DNA from: Myxococcota bacterium
Lineage (GTDB): Bacteria; Myxococcota_A; Polyangia; JAAYKL01
Assembly (NCBI GenBank): GCA_028278265.1
Contig: JANQET010000485.1
Coordinates: 1 to 34,655, forward strand
DNA: 34,655 bases
Direction: 5' to 3'
Shown: in pieces, positions 12,155 through 34,136 of the stretch
Layout of the letters: every line of letters starts with the position of its first letter
How positions within the stretch are numbered: position 1 is the first letter of the stretch
Notes under the pieces: model-generated
What the model saw: only the letters and a program-made list of their open reading frames with translations
What the model was told of the DNA's origin: nothing
The model's database searches: none
Made by a program: the position numbers and the translations under genes

Positions 12155-13738
12155 TCAGTGACTTGCCAGACGGTCGAACATCACCCTGAGCGCCTTGTCC
12201 CGCGCGTTGGCGTACCCGTCGTGACCGGCGGTCAGCGCAAACAGGGCGGGATAGAGATAGGCCGAATTCAATGAAAACGCTCGGATCATACGGGCGACCA
12301 GCGGATGGTCGATCCCGAGCTGATAGTGGCGGAGGTTGCTGGAACCGTCCACCCGGACCCAGGGGAGCTTTTGCTGGACCGCCGGATTGATCTTCAGCTT
12401 GAACGGTTTCGGTTCGTCCGGCAGGGCAAAGGCGCCGGAGCGAATCTCCCCTCGCACGGCATCGAGAAAGGCCCGCTCCCTGGGGTTGAGTCGAGTCTCA
12501 GGAATCATCTCTCCGGGTTTTTGGCCAATCCAGCGGCTGATTTTTTGTAGCCGCTCCCCAATTCGCGTCAGCCATCCCACGCCGATACCACCAGTGCGGG
12601 CGCGCAAGGGCGGGGTGTCCAGCTCCACTTCGGCGAGTTGTTCCAAAAAGCGGCGCTGGCGGTGATCCAGGCGCAGGATCAGCTGATCGGAGATGTCATA
12701 GCGGTCGAGCGACGCGTCCACATCCACCGCGTGAATCGGCCCCCGTTTGGAGGCTGCCAACACCTCCTGCAGCTCATAGGGGCGGCCAAAGGCCCGTTTG
12801 AAAATCCGCGCACCGGCGAGCAGCCGTTCGTCCCCGGTGCTGCGATGGCGTTCGAAGAGCAGTTCCAGTGCCCTTTTTCGGGCCAGATCGTTGAATTTGG
12901 CCAACCGGGGGCCGACCCGTTGGTACAGCCGTTCGGCGGCGCGGGTCAACGTGCCCCAAGTCTGGGCAAAATCCCGATCCTTTTCGTGGACCACGGCGTG
13001 GAACAACAGGCCGCTGTTGACCGGGCGCACCCTGCTCTCACCAATGATACCGTGGCGCAGCCGATGGATCCGGCAGACATCGTCGATCAGGGGCAGCCCG
13101 ATCACCGCCCTCAGCCGGGGATTGGTGATCTCGACCTGGATCAGACAGTCGTCCACTTTCAGGCCTTGACTGATCTGCTTGCCGTTGACCGAGATCGGCA
13201 GTTGGGCAAAGCGGCAGCGCTCCTTGAGAATGCGCTTCTCAGCGGCGATATCTCTCTTCTTGCTATAGACCACGAATGAGGTGTGTGCGCTGGTCGCCGC
13301 CATCATTCTTCGGGGCGGACGGTGCGGCATGAACACGATTTTCTGCATGTGATCGCCGGCCCAGAAGACGATCTCCACCTTGCGCGGTTGTTTGGCGAAC
13401 GCGGCGAGGATGCCCAGCCCCCACTCCTCCTCGAGGGCGATCAAATTTTGGTGGCGTTCATCGTCCGCCTGGCTGGGATCGACAACCACGGCGAGTCGCT
13501 TGACCAGGTTGGACAGAGCGTGGGTGCAATCGCAGCGCACGGCCAAGTACCGGCGGTTCAGCTCGACCTCGATTCGACTGGGGGCGAAACTCGCCGCAAG
13601 GGCGACCAACTCGACACAGTATTCGCTCTTGGACTTGAAGCGGCGCTCGGTGAGCTTGCGAATCTCGGCGTTGACATCGACGCCGAACAGCTCCCCGTTT
13701 CGCGAGGTGGTCGAAAGTTCTGGCGAGGCCCGGACCAT
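12155..13738 (-). CDS. Degenerate HSP90/GHKL-like protein, partner of the upstream ATPase
   Basis: A 527-residue soluble protein of no named family that I recognise. Residues 38-60 (SEYCVELVALAASFAPSRIEVE) align by eye with the N-box of its neighbour (VFLRELAQNARDAGASRIDV), but the Asn and Asp that hold Mg-ATP are Leu47 and Ser50. A later EEEWGLGILAAFA resembles the neighbour's GRFGVGFWAVLL. It therefore looks like a pseudo-ATPase copy of the GHKL fold, followed by an Arg-rich helical region and a C-terminal segment (YLYPALFALTAGHDGYANARDKA). The ATG shares its A with the upstream TAA (TAATG), so the two proteins are made together and probably form a complex. An upstream extension of the frame to 14029 lies inside the neighbour and is rejected. 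Confidence 0.6.
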   Translation of the reverse strand: MVRASPELSTTSRNGELFGVDVNAEIRKLTERRFKSKSEYCVELVALAASFAPSRIEVELNRRYLAVRCDCTHALSNLVKRLAVVVDPSQADDERHQNLIALEEEWGLGILAAFAKQPRKVEIVFWAGDHMQKIVFMPHRPPRRMMAATSAHTSFVVYSKKRDIAAEKRILKERCRFAQLPISVNGKQISQGLKVDDCLIQVEITNPRLRAVIGLPLIDDVCRIHRLRHGIIGESRVRPVNSGLLFHAVVHEKDRDFAQTWGTLTRAAERLYQRVGPRLAKFNDLARKRALELLFERHRSTGDERLLAGARIFKRAFGRPYELQEVLAASKRGPIHAVDVDASLDRYDISDQLILRLDHRQRRFLEQLAEVELDTPPLRARTGGIGVGWLTRIGERLQKISRWIGQKPGEMIPETRLNPRERAFLDAVRGEIRSGAFALPDEPKPFKLKINPAVQQKLPWVRVDGSSNLRHYQLGIDHPLVARMIRAFSLNSAYLYPALFALTAGHDGYANARDKALRVMFDRLASH

Positions 13739-16653
13739 TACCACTCCTCGATGACCTGGCGGGCGGTGAGGCGGCGGATGCGATCCTGTTGTTTCCGCAA
13801 CAACGAGCTGCGACTGAGCAACACGTCGATGAGGAAAAATGCGGACAAGCGTAGGTCCTCCTCTCCCAATTCGGCGATGCGTTTGATCTTGTCGTCGTGA
13901 ACTGAAACCGCGATGAACCGGGAGGGCCAGTGATCGAGCCCCCCCAATTTGAGCTCCGATAGATCGATATCTCGGCTCAACGTTTTGAGCTTGAGGCAGG
14001 GCCGCACCAAGTCGAGTGGCAGACCGCATTGGGCCAACAGGGTGTTGACCTCGCCGAGCAAGCGGCCGGTTCGCTTCAGCTGGGGGGGAAGTTCGTGGGT
14101 CGGCAGCGGCTTGATAAGGGCCACCTCTCCGAGATCGAGCGCTCCGGGGAGCTGGCGAATCAACTTACCGAAAGCCTCGTCAGCGGCGTTGAGCACCAGC
14201 GCGCCGTTTTTCACGGCGTGTTTGACCAGCCGGGTGCGGTACTGGGAGAACCAAAGGGTGCCCTTGCGCCCCATGGCCAGGGCCTGGGTCAGCGAGATCA
14301 TCCGCCGTCCCGGACCGAGCAGGGGGAGGAGGCGCCGCTTGGCCAACCCGTTGCGTTTGATCCATTTTTGCGGGCGCAAAAGGATATCGGTGACCATTTT
14401 GGCCGCCACTTTGTGTTGCTCGTCGATTCCCTTGACGGTGAACAGCACCCGCTTTCCTCGACGGGTGAAGTGGAGTAGCACGGCGAGTCCCAAAATGAAC
14501 GCGGCGGCCAATCCGGCGATGATCATCCCGGAGCCGACCGCCGACCCTGCGGCGAGGCCCAGCCCCAACTCGAGTGGTCGATCGGCTGACGAGGGCACCG
14601 GGGAGGAATCGGCGAGTGGCGGTTCGGGTGTGTGGGTGAAGGTGCCCGGAGGACGGGGGGATTGGCTGGTACCGGTGGCATCGATGGTCTTCCAGCGCTT
14701 GTCCCGATACTCGATCCAGGCGTGGAGCTCGGATGCGGCCCGCCCCTCCCTGCCGACCAGACCTACGGCCAAGCGGGCGGGAATTGACGCCCGGCGAAGC
14801 ATGGCAATGGCCACGGTGTTCTTCACGTCGCAGTCACCGACGCCGATGTCGAGCACAAAATCGAGCCAACCCTGGGTGGGGTTGCCGGTGAGGAAGGCGG
14901 CATAAGTGCGGGCGGCCGATTCCGATCGGTCGTAGTGCAGGCGATACTCCACAAATCGGCGGATTCGCTCCACCGTGGCGGCTGTGGTGGGTTCTCGAGC
15001 GGCCTGGTGCACCACCTCCTCGAGCTCCTTGGGCAGGGTCATTTTTTCGGGCAGCACCAGGAGGCGCCGTTGATGTTTCGTTTTGAGGCGCTGCACCCGC
15101 GGTCCGGTGCGATAGGCGAGCACTCCGCCGGTCGGTTTGTCCAAGACGATCATCGGTTCCCCGGCTGCACTGAAACGCAGTCCGGTGATTGGCCGGCGAT
15201 TCAATCGCACGCTGGACGCGTCGATCAGATAGCCGGTGGGGACCGGAATGACCACATGCCTCACCCCTGGTTCGAGCTTCATACTGACTTCGAGGCAGTT
15301 CTTGTTGCAGCGGTAGTTGGGCGCTTGAGTCCGCGGCACGGGAAGGACGCCGAGAATGCCGCGACCCGCGTCCAGATTCTCAGCCACGGTGAGCCGAAAA
15401 TTGACATCTTCAGGGGGGCGATAGGCAAAGGTGGTGGGGAAATTGATCATCGAGGGATTGACCACCGGACCGCTGAACGAGAGCGGCTTGCCGATCGGAA
15501 TCGGCGAGTAGGTGAACATCGATGAACCGACCGTTCCCTCACCACCCGGCGATGAGCCGAATGCGGAGATCGTCGAGCGGTGTTCCAGGAACAGCCGCGT
15601 CGAGTAGGTGATCAGCCCGGCACAACAGATCACCAATGCGACCAGGCCGACGACCGCCACCGGTTTGATCGCTTTTTTCAACCGCAAATCGTCAATTACG
15701 TCGAGGAGGAAATCGATTAGCCGCCGTCCAGCGGTTCGTGGGTAGAGGTTGTCCAGGTAGATGCGGATCAGGGTCCGCATCTGGCGGCGAGCGATCCGGC
15801 GAACCCGGGCCAGGGCCCGGTCATCGACCACGGCGCGGCGATCCAGGGTTACGTTCAGCCGGTTGCCGTTGAGCAGGTAAACCGGTGCCAATCCTTCGGG
15901 GTAGTCGATACCGCTGGCCTTGCTCACCCCGCAGCGCAGCTCGTCGAGTACCGTGCCGTGCCAGACGAGCAACCCCCTGGCGTAGAGATCCACTCTGGGC
16001 CTCTCGCCCAGGCCGACCGCGCCCTCGACCGAACCGGTGCGAAACGGCATCCAGCAGGGACCGTCCAGAGAGAATTCTTCAGTGATTTCGGCCTTGTTGT
16101 AGTAGATGGGAAGTGGGCGATTCTTGCGGTCCGCTTGTCGGAGATAGCGGCAGTAGCGGCTCAACGAAAGGCGCATTTCGATTTGGGTACGCTCGGCTTC
16201 CTGGTCGTTGCGCACGGGGATCTGCAGGCGAATTCGCGTCCCCGGTCGCTTGAGCTCGCAGGGGATGGGGCGATGCTGTTCCAACCCCCCGTCGATCGCC
16301 ATGCCGAACTGTTCGGCCGCCCGGGTGCGGGACTCGATCGTGATCAGCGACGGCTTGATCAGCAGTACAGCCCAAAATCCCACACCGAATCGACCCGCAC
16401 TGGTGACCTCGTCCTCTTTGCTCGAAGCGTACAGGGTAAACAGAAACTTCTGGGCGTGTTCGAAATCCATTCCCCGGCCGTTGTCGGCAAACGTCAGGAT
16501 CAGCGCGTCGTCTTTCAATCTCGTTCGCACATCGATGCGACTGGCGCCCGCGTCCCGCGCATTTTGGGCGAGCTCCCGCAAAAAGACCATCCGATCCTGT
16601 CCATAGCGGTGGCCTTCTCGTTGTGCCCGTTTTTTGAAATCAGTGCCGCGCAC
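13738..16653 (-). CDS. HSP90-like GHKL ATPase fused to membrane-spanning transglutaminase-like domain
   Basis: A 971-residue fusion. Residues 20-95 carry a complete GHKL ATP site: ELAQNARDA (E27, N31, D34), FADNGRGM (D57, G59, G61) and GRFGVGFW (87-94), most like HSP90/MORC-type ATPases. An HSP90-like middle region runs to about 320 (LYARGLLVW, LNVTLDRRAVVDD). TM1 is about 331-350. Residues 351-706 include a transglutaminase-like domain with C608 (VGDCDVKNTVAIAMLRRASIPARL), H644 (ELHAWIEY) and D658 (TIDATG). TM2 is about 707-729, and the last 240 residues are basic and helical. The topology would put the ATPase inside the cell and the Cys-protease fold outside. The start is GTG at 16653. I know no characterised protein with this architecture. 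Confidence 0.8.
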   Translation of the reverse strand: MRGTDFKKRAQREGHRYGQDRMVFLRELAQNARDAGASRIDVRTRLKDDALILTFADNGRGMDFEHAQKFLFTLYASSKEDEVTSAGRFGVGFWAVLLIKPSLITIESRTRAAEQFGMAIDGGLEQHRPIPCELKRPGTRIRLQIPVRNDQEAERTQIEMRLSLSRYCRYLRQADRKNRPLPIYYNKAEITEEFSLDGPCWMPFRTGSVEGAVGLGERPRVDLYARGLLVWHGTVLDELRCGVSKASGIDYPEGLAPVYLLNGNRLNVTLDRRAVVDDRALARVRRIARRQMRTLIRIYLDNLYPRTAGRRLIDFLLDVIDDLRLKKAIKPVAVVGLVALVICCAGLITYSTRLFLEHRSTISAFGSSPGGEGTVGSSMFTYSPIPIGKPLSFSGPVVNPSMINFPTTFAYRPPEDVNFRLTVAENLDAGRGILGVLPVPRTQAPNYRCNKNCLEVSMKLEPGVRHVVIPVPTGYLIDASSVRLNRRPITGLRFSAAGEPMIVLDKPTGGVLAYRTGPRVQRLKTKHQRRLLVLPEKMTLPKELEEVVHQAAREPTTAATVERIRRFVEYRLHYDRSESAARTYAAFLTGNPTQGWLDFVLDIGVGDCDVKNTVAIAMLRRASIPARLAVGLVGREGRAASELHAWIEYRDKRWKTIDATGTSQSPRPPGTFTHTPEPPLADSSPVPSSADRPLELGLGLAAGSAVGSGMIIAGLAAAFILGLAVLLHFTRRGKRVLFTVKGIDEQHKVAAKMVTDILLRPQKWIKRNGLAKRRLLPLLGPGRRMISLTQALAMGRKGTLWFSQYRTRLVKHAVKNGALVLNAADEAFGKLIRQLPGALDLGEVALIKPLPTHELPPQLKRTGRLLGEVNTLLAQCGLPLDLVRPCLKLKTLSRDIDLSELKLGGLDHWPSRFIAVSVHDDKIKRIAELGEEDLRLSAFFLIDVLLSRSSLLRKQQDRIRRLTARQVIEEW

Positions 16654-16761: not shown

Positions 16762-17652
16762 TTAGCGGGGAGTTTGGTTGGCCTCTTCGGCCCATTTGAC
16801 CATTTCCTCTACCGTGGGGTGGGGATCGTTCATCGTGGTTCGACCCCTGACCACTCCGGTCGTCAGATCCACAAAACCGATGAAGGGGTAGGTTCGAAAT
16901 CCCAGGGTGACCATCGGATCCCCTTCGACGAGGTAGCCGTGGTCATAGTATTGGGTGAAATAATCGTGGACCTCGGCAATCGGCACCGGCGTGGATCCCA
17001 TACCGTGGGTGTAAAACATCAATATCGTGCTGTTGTGAACCTTGATTTTGTTTTCGAGATCTTCGCTAACTAGCGAAGCATTCAACGGTGCGCAGCTACT
17101 TCAGTCGCGGTCGGACAACAGGATCACCACTGAATTGAAGTGGTCGCAGAAAACATCCTCCAGCGTATAATTGGATGGGTTATCGATATCCGATTGGTCG
17201 ATGGTGCCATCGAGATCCCGGTCAAAGGCACCGAACACTTCATAGTTTTTAATCGGTTTTCCCGTCTCAAATCCCACCCCCCATTCGGCTGTGACCTCGC
17301 AATCCGTGTCACCGTCCGAATCGCTATCACTATCGGAATCGCTGTCCGAGTCAGAATCTGAATCGCTGTCTGAATCGGCGTCCGAGTCGGTGTCGGCGTC
17401 GCTGTCCGAGTCGCTGTCCGAGTCAGTATCGGAATCGCTGTCCGAGTCGCCGTCCGAGTCACTGTCCGAGTCACTATCCGAGTCCCCGTCCCCGTCTCCA
17501 TCGCCGTCCGAGTCGCTGTCTGCGTCCGCATCTCCCGCTGTGTCGTCGTCGCCCTCCGAGTTGCCGGAACAAGCGGACTGGCCGGTGCTCCAGACAACAC
17601 CGAGGAAAATCAACAAGAGCATCGGCGTGCCCGATTTTTGTACCTCGATCAT
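16762..17652 (-). CDS. Candidate selenoprotein: Asp-rich lipoprotein with thioredoxin-like UxxC domain
   Basis: Read through one TGA (17101-17103), this is a single 296-residue protein. Residues 1-28 form a lipoprotein signal ending in GQSAC with Cys28. About 35-117 is an Asp-Ser/Gly/Ala repeat linker. From 120 a thioredoxin-like domain begins ([36 protein letters not shown]). The TGA is residue 184, exactly where such domains carry the redox C-x-x-C, and is followed by Ser-Ser-Cys, giving U-x-x-C. The same frame continues with [27 protein letters not shown] and YPFIGFVDL, and ends at TAA. A 7-bp hairpin lies 23-40 bases after the TGA. If Sec is not inserted, this is a gene broken by a stop. 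It would act as a surface-anchored thiol oxidoreductase. Confidence 0.78.
17061..17078 (-). promoter_or_regulatory. Candidate bacterial SECIS hairpin
   Basis: On the minus strand, CTTCGCT (17078-17072) and AGCGAAG (17067-17061) pair perfectly around loop AGTT. The loop begins 30 bases after the TGA at 17101-17103, and G is its second base. This meets the usual bacterial SECIS rules: apical loop about 16-37 bases downstream, with G in the first two loop positions. It lies within coding sequence, as bacterial SECIS elements do. Confidence 0.65.
17302..17550 (-). repeat. Asp-x codon repeat, copy 2
   Basis: About 83 codons alternate Asp with Ser, Gly, Ala or Thr, making the linker between the lipidated N-terminus and the thioredoxin-like domain. 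It is the longest of the three Asp-rich tracts. The opposite strand reads as Ser-Glu repeats, which are shadow ORFs. Confidence 0.9.
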
Positions 17653-31610: not shown

Positions 31611-34136
31611 TTAAATGCGACCGCTTAGAGAGAGGTAGATCAGGCGCTGGTCGATACCGTTGTGACCGTTGGAGGCCATGAAGTTGAGTGAGGTGGCCGA
31701 TGGGGTCTCGTTGGCGGTGAGGTTTTGGAAATTGAGCTTGAGGCCGATCTGCGGATTCACTTTGTAGGTCAGTGCCGTGTTGAGGATCACCACATTGGCG
31801 CCAAAGGCTTCGCTCTGTCCGGCCTCTTCGTGCACATCCACACCGCTGTACATCCGGAAGTTGGCGTGCCAGAAAAAGCGATTGGCGAGCAGCTGCCAGG
31901 TGAAATTGGACTTGACCTGGTGGCCGGAGTAGCAGATCCACTCCTTCCCCTTGAGGGACGGATTGGCCGGATCGCTGATGTCCGCGTTGACCAGGGAGCC
32001 CATCAAGGCGTAGGAATCGTCGGTGAACTGGGTCGGCCGGGAGTAGCCGTAGGAGAGGCTGAACAGAATGCCCTGCGACGGTTCCGCTCGACCGATCACC
32101 TCACCCCCCACCGAGCCGAAGGTGTCGGGCATGTTGACGAACATGTAGCCGTTCCAGCTGAGCAGGTTGTGGTACATGTTGTAGTACGCGCTCAGGTCCA
32201 ACGAGAGTTTGTTCTCGAGGAAGCTGTTCATCGAGTTGAATTCGATGCTGTCCATCAGCTCGGCGGACAGCTCCGATTTGCTGTTGCCCAGATCCGGTGC
32301 GCCGGGGACCTCCACGTCCAGGTTGTTGTCGAAGATGTAGTTGTTTTTGATCATATGCCCGAAGTAGGCCGCATCGGGGAGGCGGAAGCCGCGGCCGTAG
32401 GACAGCTTGAGCACGTGGTTTTCGGTAATCGAAAAGACAGCGGCCACCCGGGGCGAAATGTCGGTCGATTCGACGTTGGGCTTTAACTCGACATCTTCGT
32501 CGGTCATCTCCGGATGGTTGATCGCGGCGCCGATATCGCGAACGAGGAATTTGCCGTAGGAGGTGTGGTCGAGTCGGGCGCCGGCCGAAACGGTGAACTG
32601 CTTGGTGATTTCGAAGATGTCCTCGGCGAACAACGAGAGGTCCCACCAGGCGATTTCACCGTCCTCGAAGCCGAAGGTCGGATCGCTGTCGAAGAAGAGC
32701 TTGCCGTCGTCCATGTTGCGGTACCCCGCCTGGGCGCCGACCGCCAATGAGTTGTTGGGAATTTGGGTGGTGCGAAAGACCGCCTTGAGCGCATAGAACT
32801 TTTCGCGGCCGCCTCGCGCCATGCCGTGGGGATCCTCGGTCTCGTTGTGCTTTTGGAAGGACTTGTTGTAGAGCGCGAAGTCGTGCCATTGGCCGTCCAG
32901 GGAGACGGTCAGGGAGGTGTTCGGATTGAACTTCAATTCGTATTGGGGGCGCACCAGGATCATTCCCCGGTACCACCCGTGATCGTAGGGATCGGCGCTG
33001 GCGAACCAAAACGGGGCCACCGCGTCATTGGCCGAATCGAAGATGCGCAGGGCCTGGGCCTGAAACGACAGGCCGCCATGGCGCCAGTAGGCGGCCACCT
33101 TGGCGCTGGGCAGGGCGTATTCGCGGGTTCGAATCGTCACACCGGCCTGTTTGAGCGTCTGAAGGTCTGCTTCATTCCATTCGAGCTCATTGGGTTCGAA
33201 CCCCCGGGAGGCGACCACCCCGGCGTAGAGCAAGAGGGAGTTCTCCTTGCCGTAGGGCAACCCGTAGGTCGCCTCGGCCAGCACCAGTTGATCGGCAAAG
33301 CCCATTTCGCTGCGCATTTTCAATCCGGGGTGCTGGTGGGCGTCTTTGGGGATCAGGTTGACCACGCCGTTGATCGCGCCCCCCCCGTGGACGATGGCGT
33401 TGGGTCCGTGGACCGTCTCCATCCGTTCGAGATCACCCATCAGGGGTAGGTTGAGCTCGGAGTTGACCCCGAAGTGACGTCGCATGTTCATCGTCTGACC
33501 GTCGAGCAGCACCAGGGTCTTGGCGTTGTTGTCTACCGAAACCCCGCGGGCCCCGATCAACGCGCCGGTCCAGAAGTGCTCGGTCATCTGCACACCGGGA
33601 ACGTAGATGTCGAGCAGCTCCTTGATGTTCCGCGCGGTGGAGTAGCGCCACTGCTCATCGGTCACCGAGACCGTGTAGTTGGGGGTGTTGCGAATGTTGG
33701 TCGGAAAGAATCCGGCGGTGACGATGTCCACGTTGAGCAAATCGACCAAGCCGAGCTTGACGAATTCGTCCAAGTGCTCCTCTTCGGGTTGGGCCAAGGT
33801 CTTTGCTCCCGCCAAGGCCGGTTCTCCCCCATCGATTCGGGTCTCGGTCGGAGCAGGGGCCACGACGGGTGGCTCGGGTAAGGATGGTTTCGGTGCTTCA
33901 ACGGTGGCGTCGGCCGGTGGCGGCTTGAGCTGGGGCGCGACCGGGGGGGCGGGAGTCTCCGGCGCGATCGGTGGAACGGTTTCATCTGTCCCGCTCGGCG
34001 CAGTGGGGACGGTCGGGGCGGTTGGTGTCTCCGCTGGTTGGTCGGTCGCACCGGGCTCGGTTACGCTTTCCTGGGCCCAAGCCCCTAAAGGCAGCGCGGT
34101 CGCGAAAGCACAGCAGATGACTGACGTTCGAATCAT
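31611..34136 (-). CDS. TonB-dependent outer-membrane receptor
   Basis: An 841-residue receptor that imports a chelate or glycan across the outer membrane using TonB energy. Residues 1-21 are a signal peptide (GAWAQ). Residues 25-110 are an unusual Pro/Thr/Ala-rich spacer. The plug runs about 140-260 (ARNIKELLDIYVPGVQ, IGARGVSVDNNAKTLVLLDGQ, LERMETVHGPNAIVHGGGAINGVVNLI), and a 22-strand-type barrel follows with SYGRGFRLPDAAYFG and a final LIYLSLSGRI strand. AAGAGGTGG precedes the ATG. The ligand cannot be told from sequence; no TonB/ExbB or periplasmic binding partner is nearby, only signalling genes on both sides. Confidence 0.92.
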   Translation of the reverse strand: MIRTSVICCAFATALPLGAWAQESVTEPGATDQPAETPTAPTVPTAPSGTDETVPPIAPETPAPPVAPQLKPPPADATVEAPKPSLPEPPVVAPAPTETRIDGGEPALAGAKTLAQPEEEHLDEFVKLGLVDLLNVDIVTAGFFPTNIRNTPNYTVSVTDEQWRYSTARNIKELLDIYVPGVQMTEHFWTGALIGARGVSVDNNAKTLVLLDGQTMNMRRHFGVNSELNLPLMGDLERMETVHGPNAIVHGGGAINGVVNLIPKDAHQHPGLKMRSEMGFADQLVLAEATYGLPYGKENSLLLYAGVVASRGFEPNELEWNEADLQTLKQAGVTIRTREYALPSAKVAAYWRHGGLSFQAQALRIFDSANDAVAPFWFASADPYDHGWYRGMILVRPQYELKFNPNTSLTVSLDGQWHDFALYNKSFQKHNETEDPHGMARGGREKFYALKAVFRTTQIPNNSLAVGAQAGYRNMDDGKLFFDSDPTFGFEDGEIAWWDLSLFAEDIFEITKQFTVSAGARLDHTSYGKFLVRDIGAAINHPEMTDEDVELKPNVESTDISPRVAAVFSITENHVLKLSYGRGFRLPDAAYFGHMIKNNYIFDNNLDVEVPGAPDLGNSKSELSAELMDSIEFNSMNSFLENKLSLDLSAYYNMYHNLLSWNGYMFVNMPDTFGSVGGEVIGRAEPSQGILFSLSYGYSRPTQFTDDSYALMGSLVNADISDPANPSLKGKEWICYSGHQVKSNFTWQLLANRFFWHANFRMYSGVDVHEEAGQSEAFGANVVILNTALTYKVNPQIGLKLNFQNLTANETPSATSLNFMASNGHNGIDQRLIYLSLSGRI

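Follow-up and report, generated by a model that had tools for sequence, protein, structure and literature searches.

The gene on the minus strand at positions 16762-17652 of the window, the whole 34,655-nucleotide stretch of DNA analysed here, very probably encodes a selenoprotein. Selenocysteine (Sec) inserted at an in-frame UGA by means of a SECIS element would give an exported, lipid-anchored redox protein of the TlpA/Redoxin type, which carries its selenol-disulfide chemistry on an Asp-rich stalk. Judged from its relatives, the gene is one of at least 31 predicted Sec-bearing genes of its family in the source genome.

A single frame and its relatives

Two listed minus-strand ORFs, 17652-17101 and 17085-16762, had been proposed in the first-pass annotation to be one frame split by a TGA that falls at the redox motif and precedes Ser-Ser-Cys. 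Both proposals held: the frame 17652-16762 is open except for the TGA at 17103-17101, and its translation (M...LLSDRD-TGA-SSC...TPR-TAA) reads U184-S-S-C187 in frame. An alternative start is possible at a second ATG, at residue 11. From its N-terminus the product has a hydrophobic leader that closes with GQSA-C28, then an Asp-x stalk as far as roughly residue 117, followed by Cys118; the U184-S-S-C187 motif belongs to the domain of some 175 residues that comes after. The features, all on the minus strand, are as follows.

16762-17652, minus strand: whole selenoprotein gene as predicted, 296 residues including Sec184, ending in TAA
17569-17652, minus strand: signal sequence and lipobox-like ..GQSA-C28
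17302-17550, minus strand: Asp-x repeat stalk, about residues 35-117, with Asp at almost every second position
17188-17223, minus strand: EF-hand-like loop of 12 residues, a pattern shared by 10 of the 15 Sec members aligned
16765-17289, minus strand: TlpA/Redoxin-like thioredoxin-fold domain, assigned by profile-profile match to class-level CxxC relatives
17101-17103, minus strand: in-frame TGA, probably read as Sec184 (the U of U-S-S-C), aligned at the motif with TGA or Cys in relatives
17092-17094, minus strand: putative resolving Cys187, codon TGC
17061-17078, minus strand: candidate SECIS hairpin CUUCGCU-AGUU-AGCGAAG, 7 bp, with its loop 29 nt from the UGA, -8.0 kcal/mol

Taken alone, the in-frame TGA of the window gene is weak evidence and is not above chance, because the window (G+C 60%) holds 65 isolated-TGA read-through frames of at least 150 residues, 12 of them with a Cys no more than three residues away and five with U-x-x-C. 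With homologues counted, the TGA motif is strongly beyond chance.

The source genome is a 7.67-Mb draft in 516 contigs, 90.65% complete and 3.73% contaminated. Two profile searches of this genome gave 42 rows which, less three repeats, constitute 39 distinct family members; one 24-residue match on contig C360 (E 0.19) was left out of the census. TGA lies within the redox motif in 31 of the 39: 28 UxxC, one UxxxC (C466:36921) and two UxxU. The UxxU genes, C156:74757-75323 (L134) and C215:1363-1947 (L132), have two TGA codons each and the motifs UPFU and UETU. CxxC is found in six members, three of which (on C421, C234 and C319) are distant and generic TlpA-like, and neither redox pair is found in two (C129:5859-6290 and C156:76268-76729). 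In these two the motif site reads WATTN and IEPSG, and the domain is retained. On contig C156 (91 kb) there are seven members of the family: Sec is present in four, CxxC in two and neither in one.

The window domain is 16-35% identical to 14 other members, and hence the members are ancient paralogues and not copies from different strains. In alignment A1 of 15 Sec members the Sec and Cys columns alone are invariant, partly by construction because its rows were chosen by their U..C pattern; the census is a fairer test, though its search profile itself has Cys at the motif position. The Trp that precedes the motif is absent in most members.

We searched 144 genomes, the source genome included, and 27 gave a match at 0.001. 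Outside the source genome there were 57 matches and 59 distinct rows, comprising 23 UxxC, four CxxU, one UxxU, 30 CxxC and one with a lone first Cys, so that 28 of these 59 rows, all from the class but outside the source genome, have Sec within the motif. The UxxU row (L176, G005:C173) and the lone-Cys row both come from genome G005. The first-pass annotation had looked to homologues with Sec or Cys at residue 184 for support. That expectation was borne out in the first motif position of all 59 rows elsewhere and in the source genome by the 31 TGA and six CxxC members, the exceptions being the two members with neither.

Within the window's family, TGA members are present in the source genome and in G001, G004, G005, G010 and G012; elsewhere in the class they are present in G050 and, weakly and in a short frame, in G101. 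On one contig of G050, a genome of another family (G050:C11, L178), there are four UxxC domains, two of them within one frame. Close orthologues with CPPC or CGPC were found in G010, G001 and G012. The CxxU rows are a single orthologue set with WCSTU (Cys-Ser-Thr-Sec after Trp), from G001, G010 (twice) and G012. In this set (L106, L108, L109 and L110) the Cys/Sec order is reversed, and an AGUU-loop hairpin of 6-7 bp is present.

In a draw of 377 genomes from the phylum, five including the source gave a match at 1e-8, four being of the window's family and one a Cys member; the Sec-bearing G050, of another family, was absent from these five. No relative came from a scan of named genome contigs with the window domain, and a second scan with a closely related group found three named contigs, from the MAGs Deltaproteobacteria bacterium CSMAG_220, 306 and 2956, CSMAG being the name of the cold-seep catalogue (PMC10491686). 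A tblastn search of plasmid sequences found no relative.

Domain, anchor and probable function

A profile of the Sec members matched one built from eight CxxC relatives at class level with a probability of 99.3 over 147 columns, which supports the thioredoxin-like domain claimed in the first-pass annotation. When six of those eight relatives were scanned singly, two passed AhpC-TSA and one passed Redoxin. The window protein itself matched no family model: NCBIfam gave none at E 1, and Pfam gave EF-hand models alone, all under cut-off. Other members weakly match Redoxin, AhpC-TSA, TlpA and ResA (best ResA E 1.4e-5). In a profile search of the PDB the best match was calbindin over the EF-hand-like loop (E 7.1e-6), with Dsb-type proteins at 0.02 or worse. 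The AlphaFold models were poor (mean pLDDT 39.7 and 31.0) and thus the fold assignment rests on the profiles; after residue 54 the model with mean pLDDT 39.7 runs strand-helix-strand-helix-strand-strand-helix.

The family is like the TlpA/ResA/DsbE-like oxidoreductases (Redoxin PF08534, AhpC-TSA PF00578) in its CxxC-type site and, via the CxxC relatives, in its profile match. The ResA, TlpA and DsbE models are weakly matched by single family members and not by the window protein. Unlike those oxidoreductases, the window family has Sec in place of the first Cys, an EF-hand-like loop before the site, an Asp stalk and, for the most part, no Trp before the motif.

In favour of the claimed lipid anchor, a simple rule finds lipobox-like N-termini in 28 of the 31 Sec members, the window protein (with Gln at -3) among them; two of the three failures lie at a contig end. 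The claim of an Asp-repeat stalk of about 80 residues proved correct (about residues 35-117). An Asp-x run is present in 22 of the 31 Sec members, and of the nine that lack it one (C187) is cut by a contig end. The Asp-Ser/Gly/Ala/Thr stalk is a generic module of the source genome: in the first own-genome search (202 matches) more than 100 rows among the matches listed, some genes giving two rows, had the stalk without a TGA domain, and most were without a thioredoxin domain. The generic nature of the stalk, the large paralogous family and the EF-hand-like loop ahead of the redox site go beyond the first-pass annotation.

In sequence terms the window gene has a recoded UGA, a SECIS element, an anchor-like signal, a stalk and a TlpA/Redoxin-type domain, and we infer a surface location for its protein. 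Our preferred reading of the product is a selenol-disulfide oxidoreductase of TlpA/Redoxin-like type, anchored through its lipobox and bearing an Asp stalk and an EF-hand-like loop. In E. coli, Ser at position +2 of a lipoprotein leads to outer membrane sorting. A plausible course of events is that SelB and Sec-tRNA bind the GUU-loop hairpin just past the UGA and insert Sec, and that the protein then leaves the cytoplasm, receives its lipid at Cys28 and, through its Ser at +2, reaches the outer membrane. The acidic stalk and EF-hand-like loop may bind Ca2+ and keep the redox domain off the membrane. The Sec184 selenolate would attack a disulfide, peroxide or similar oxidised substrate, and Sec184 and Cys187 would then form a selenenyl-sulfide. 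An electron donor outside the cytoplasm would then re-reduce the pair; the genome's single DsbD-type protein is a candidate (DsbD_TM has one match in the source genome). The many paralogues suggest different partners. Lipid-anchored [NiFeSe] hydrogenase and exported Sec formate dehydrogenases are precedents for non-cytoplasmic selenoproteins; these are unrelated metal enzymes.

A serious rival to the redox role, although we consider it rather improbable, is that the protein is a selenoprotein without redox catalysis, its Sec/Cys pair serving to bind a metal or metalloid or to store selenium. The UxxU members, the expansion to 31 copies and the general lack of the Trp before the motif would fit such a role, as would our scan of the 19 window ORFs, among which no redox partner was recognised and no functional link to the selenoprotein gene was found. 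Binding or storage is less readily reconciled with the TlpA/Redoxin relationship of the domain and with a first motif residue that switches from Cys to Sec, an exchange also known from thiol oxidoreductases. The window also encodes, immediately downstream of the selenoprotein gene, a large protein that combines an HSP90-like ATPase domain with a transglutaminase core (13738-16653, minus strand), and a TonB-dependent receptor is encoded at 31611-34136 (minus strand).

SECIS hairpins and selenocysteine machinery

The perfect 7-bp hairpin with loop AGTT that the first-pass annotation placed 23 bases past the TGA and took for a bacterial SECIS is present at 17078-17061 (CTTCGCT-AGTT-AGCGAAG in DNA). 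It falls within every bacterial SECIS limit quoted in PMC13188914: a loop of 3-9 nt (here AGUU) with G in its first two positions, a stem of 4-16 bp (7 bp), a distance of 16-37 nt from the UGA (29 nt) and an MFE of at most -7.5 (-8.0 kcal/mol). The 76-nt region around the hairpin is no more stable than its shuffled versions (z 0.04).

These limits were set beforehand and contiguous stems alone were scored. At -7.5, -5 and -3 kcal/mol, 13, 17 and 25 of the 33 own-genome UGAs passed, versus 0, 0 and 3 of the 30 rows without TGA; the corresponding null of 200 rounds had means of 1.03, 2.66 and 5.77 and maxima of 4, 8 and 11. Under the contiguous-stem rule 20 of the 33 fail at -7.5 and eight fail even at -3, and hence some members either have SECIS elements of other shapes or are dead. 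For a GUU loop motif picked after viewing the folded stretches of these sequences, hairpins of at least 5 bp were found in 29 of 51 TGA rows versus none of 30 others (two of the 30 reach 4 bp), compared with a mean of 2.95 and a maximum of 8 when synonymous codons were redrawn in 500 rounds. At 7 bp or more there were 21 hairpins, compared with 0.44 on average and at most 4 under the null.

The hairpins fall into two well-populated register classes, near and far, and the window hairpin is of the far class. In the near class the loop G is the 21st base from the T of the TGA, and 15 distinct hairpins came from 19 rows (row L050 was excluded and belongs to the far class). For the far class eight paralogous rows were counted, L041-1323 being left out with a different hairpin. 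Rows of other spacings, the CSTU set included, were excluded from the covariation count. In the near class 93.3% of cells are paired, both sides have changed in six of seven pairs and the covariation score is 0.814 (shuffle mean 0.293); the far class gave 91.7%, five of six pairs and 0.702 (shuffle mean 0.273). In both classes the covariation score, the percentage paired and the number of both-side-changed cells exceeded all 500 shuffles. Two of the five covariation measures were not distinct from shuffles in either class: pairs changed on both sides were matched by 93 (near) and 24 (far) of 500 shuffles, and further pair types by 388 and 106 of 500. Sliding the partner strand dropped pairing to 21-44%.

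Each UxxU gene of the source genome has one hairpin, 26 and 17 nt from its two UGAs, strong in C215 (-10.4) and weak in C156 (-3.0). A near-class covariance model run on the source genome gave eight matches at E<0.1, all of them family members, seven coming from the training set and C187 lying outside it. Rfam gave no relevant match, a sub-threshold miRNA match near the hairpin being irrelevant. The published limits satisfied by the window hairpin and the covarying class hairpins bear out the claim of a bacterial SECIS.

The sel genes that the first-pass annotation had suggested looking for are all present. In the source genome selA, selB and selC adjoin on contig C30, and second copies lie on C441 (selA), C341 (selB) and C421 (selC); both tRNAs were called Sec by ARAGORN, with anticodon TCA. 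Two selD genes are over cut-off, and that on C59 has an in-frame TGA of its own. Contigs C30, C341, C421, C441, C59 and C47 hold duplicate sel sets, which could reflect either genuine gene duplication or DNA of another organism within the draft. Given the 516 contigs, the 3.73% contamination and the two sel sets, a mixture of genomes is possible. In family f1 (14 genomes, source included) TGA members occur in six of the seven genomes with selB over cut-off, the exception being G007, and in none of the seven without (Fisher p 0.005, with shared descent ignored).

These data bear on three further readings of the TGA. If it were an ordinary stop, the gene would encode a 183-residue stalked lipoprotein, and the remainder would be a remnant or a chance open frame. 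The 65 read-through frames of the window, five with UxxC, are in keeping with this, and TGA seems to be the terminator in other family members such as L007 and L010. We nevertheless judge an ordinary stop very improbable: the domain runs on past a motif TGA in 31 paralogues, relatives in five further same-family genomes also have TGA there, with Cys otherwise, and the hairpins covary. Conversion of a Cys codon to TGA by sequencing or assembly error, which a draft assembly might invite, is scarcely credible when 31 genes, and other genomes too, share the change and it is paired with a hairpin missing from the rows without TGA. General reassignment of UGA, for example to Trp or Gly, would equally give read-through of an in-frame TGA, but is negligible in probability given homologues with Cys at the site, not Trp or Gly, the two TCA-anticodon tRNA-Sec genes with selA, selB and selD, and the family members in which TGA apparently also terminates. 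On these grounds we reject all three.

Relation to known selenoproteins and significance

Among the families in Table 1 of the 2026 review (PMC13188914), the thioredoxin-fold UxxC selenoproteins (thiol-disulfide isomerase-like, Redoxin family and Prx-like) are alike in having UxxC, a downstream bacterial SECIS and Cys homologues. Compared with these, the window family consists of Asp-stalked lipoproteins with an EF-hand-like loop and at least 31 paralogues in the one source genome; no Asp-stalked lipoprotein family with such a loop appears among the 119 selenoprotein families of the review's table. Weak similarity was seen in a few members to NF053656 (TUGYCR motif thioredoxin-fold (seleno)protein, best E 0.0087) and NF040769 (SelL-related redox protein, best E 0.00045), neither of which the window protein matched at E 1. 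We did not find the family in the literature searched, including PMC12013277; Haft and Tolstoy 2025 (PMC12013261) may describe it. The family is apparently uncatalogued. As thioredoxin-fold UxxC selenoproteins are already well known as a class, it would be a new family within a known class, and it is unusual in its anchor, stalk, copy number and range of Sec placements.

The 2026 review (PMC13188914) gives 57 and 63 as the sizes of the largest complete bacterial selenoproteomes; a draft genome with 31 or more Sec genes from a single family would reach about half of these figures. A standard gene caller would end each of these Sec genes at its active site. On one scaffold the family offers natural exchanges of Sec and Cys (UxxC, CxxC, CxxU and UxxU), with two covarying SECIS registers, and therefore both the reason for Sec and the placement rules of the bacterial SECIS could be examined with it. 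Tentatively, and with more doubt than conviction, we picture the outer surface of a sediment lineage as coated by dozens of lipid-anchored, Ca2+-stiffened selenoenzymes, a single-family expansion larger than any quoted so far, in which the redox pair (UxxC, CxxC, CxxU or UxxU) is freely exchanged and each paralogue has its own extracellular substrate of sulfur, peroxide or metalloid type. The family points to selenium chemistry beyond the cytoplasm in sediment bacteria.
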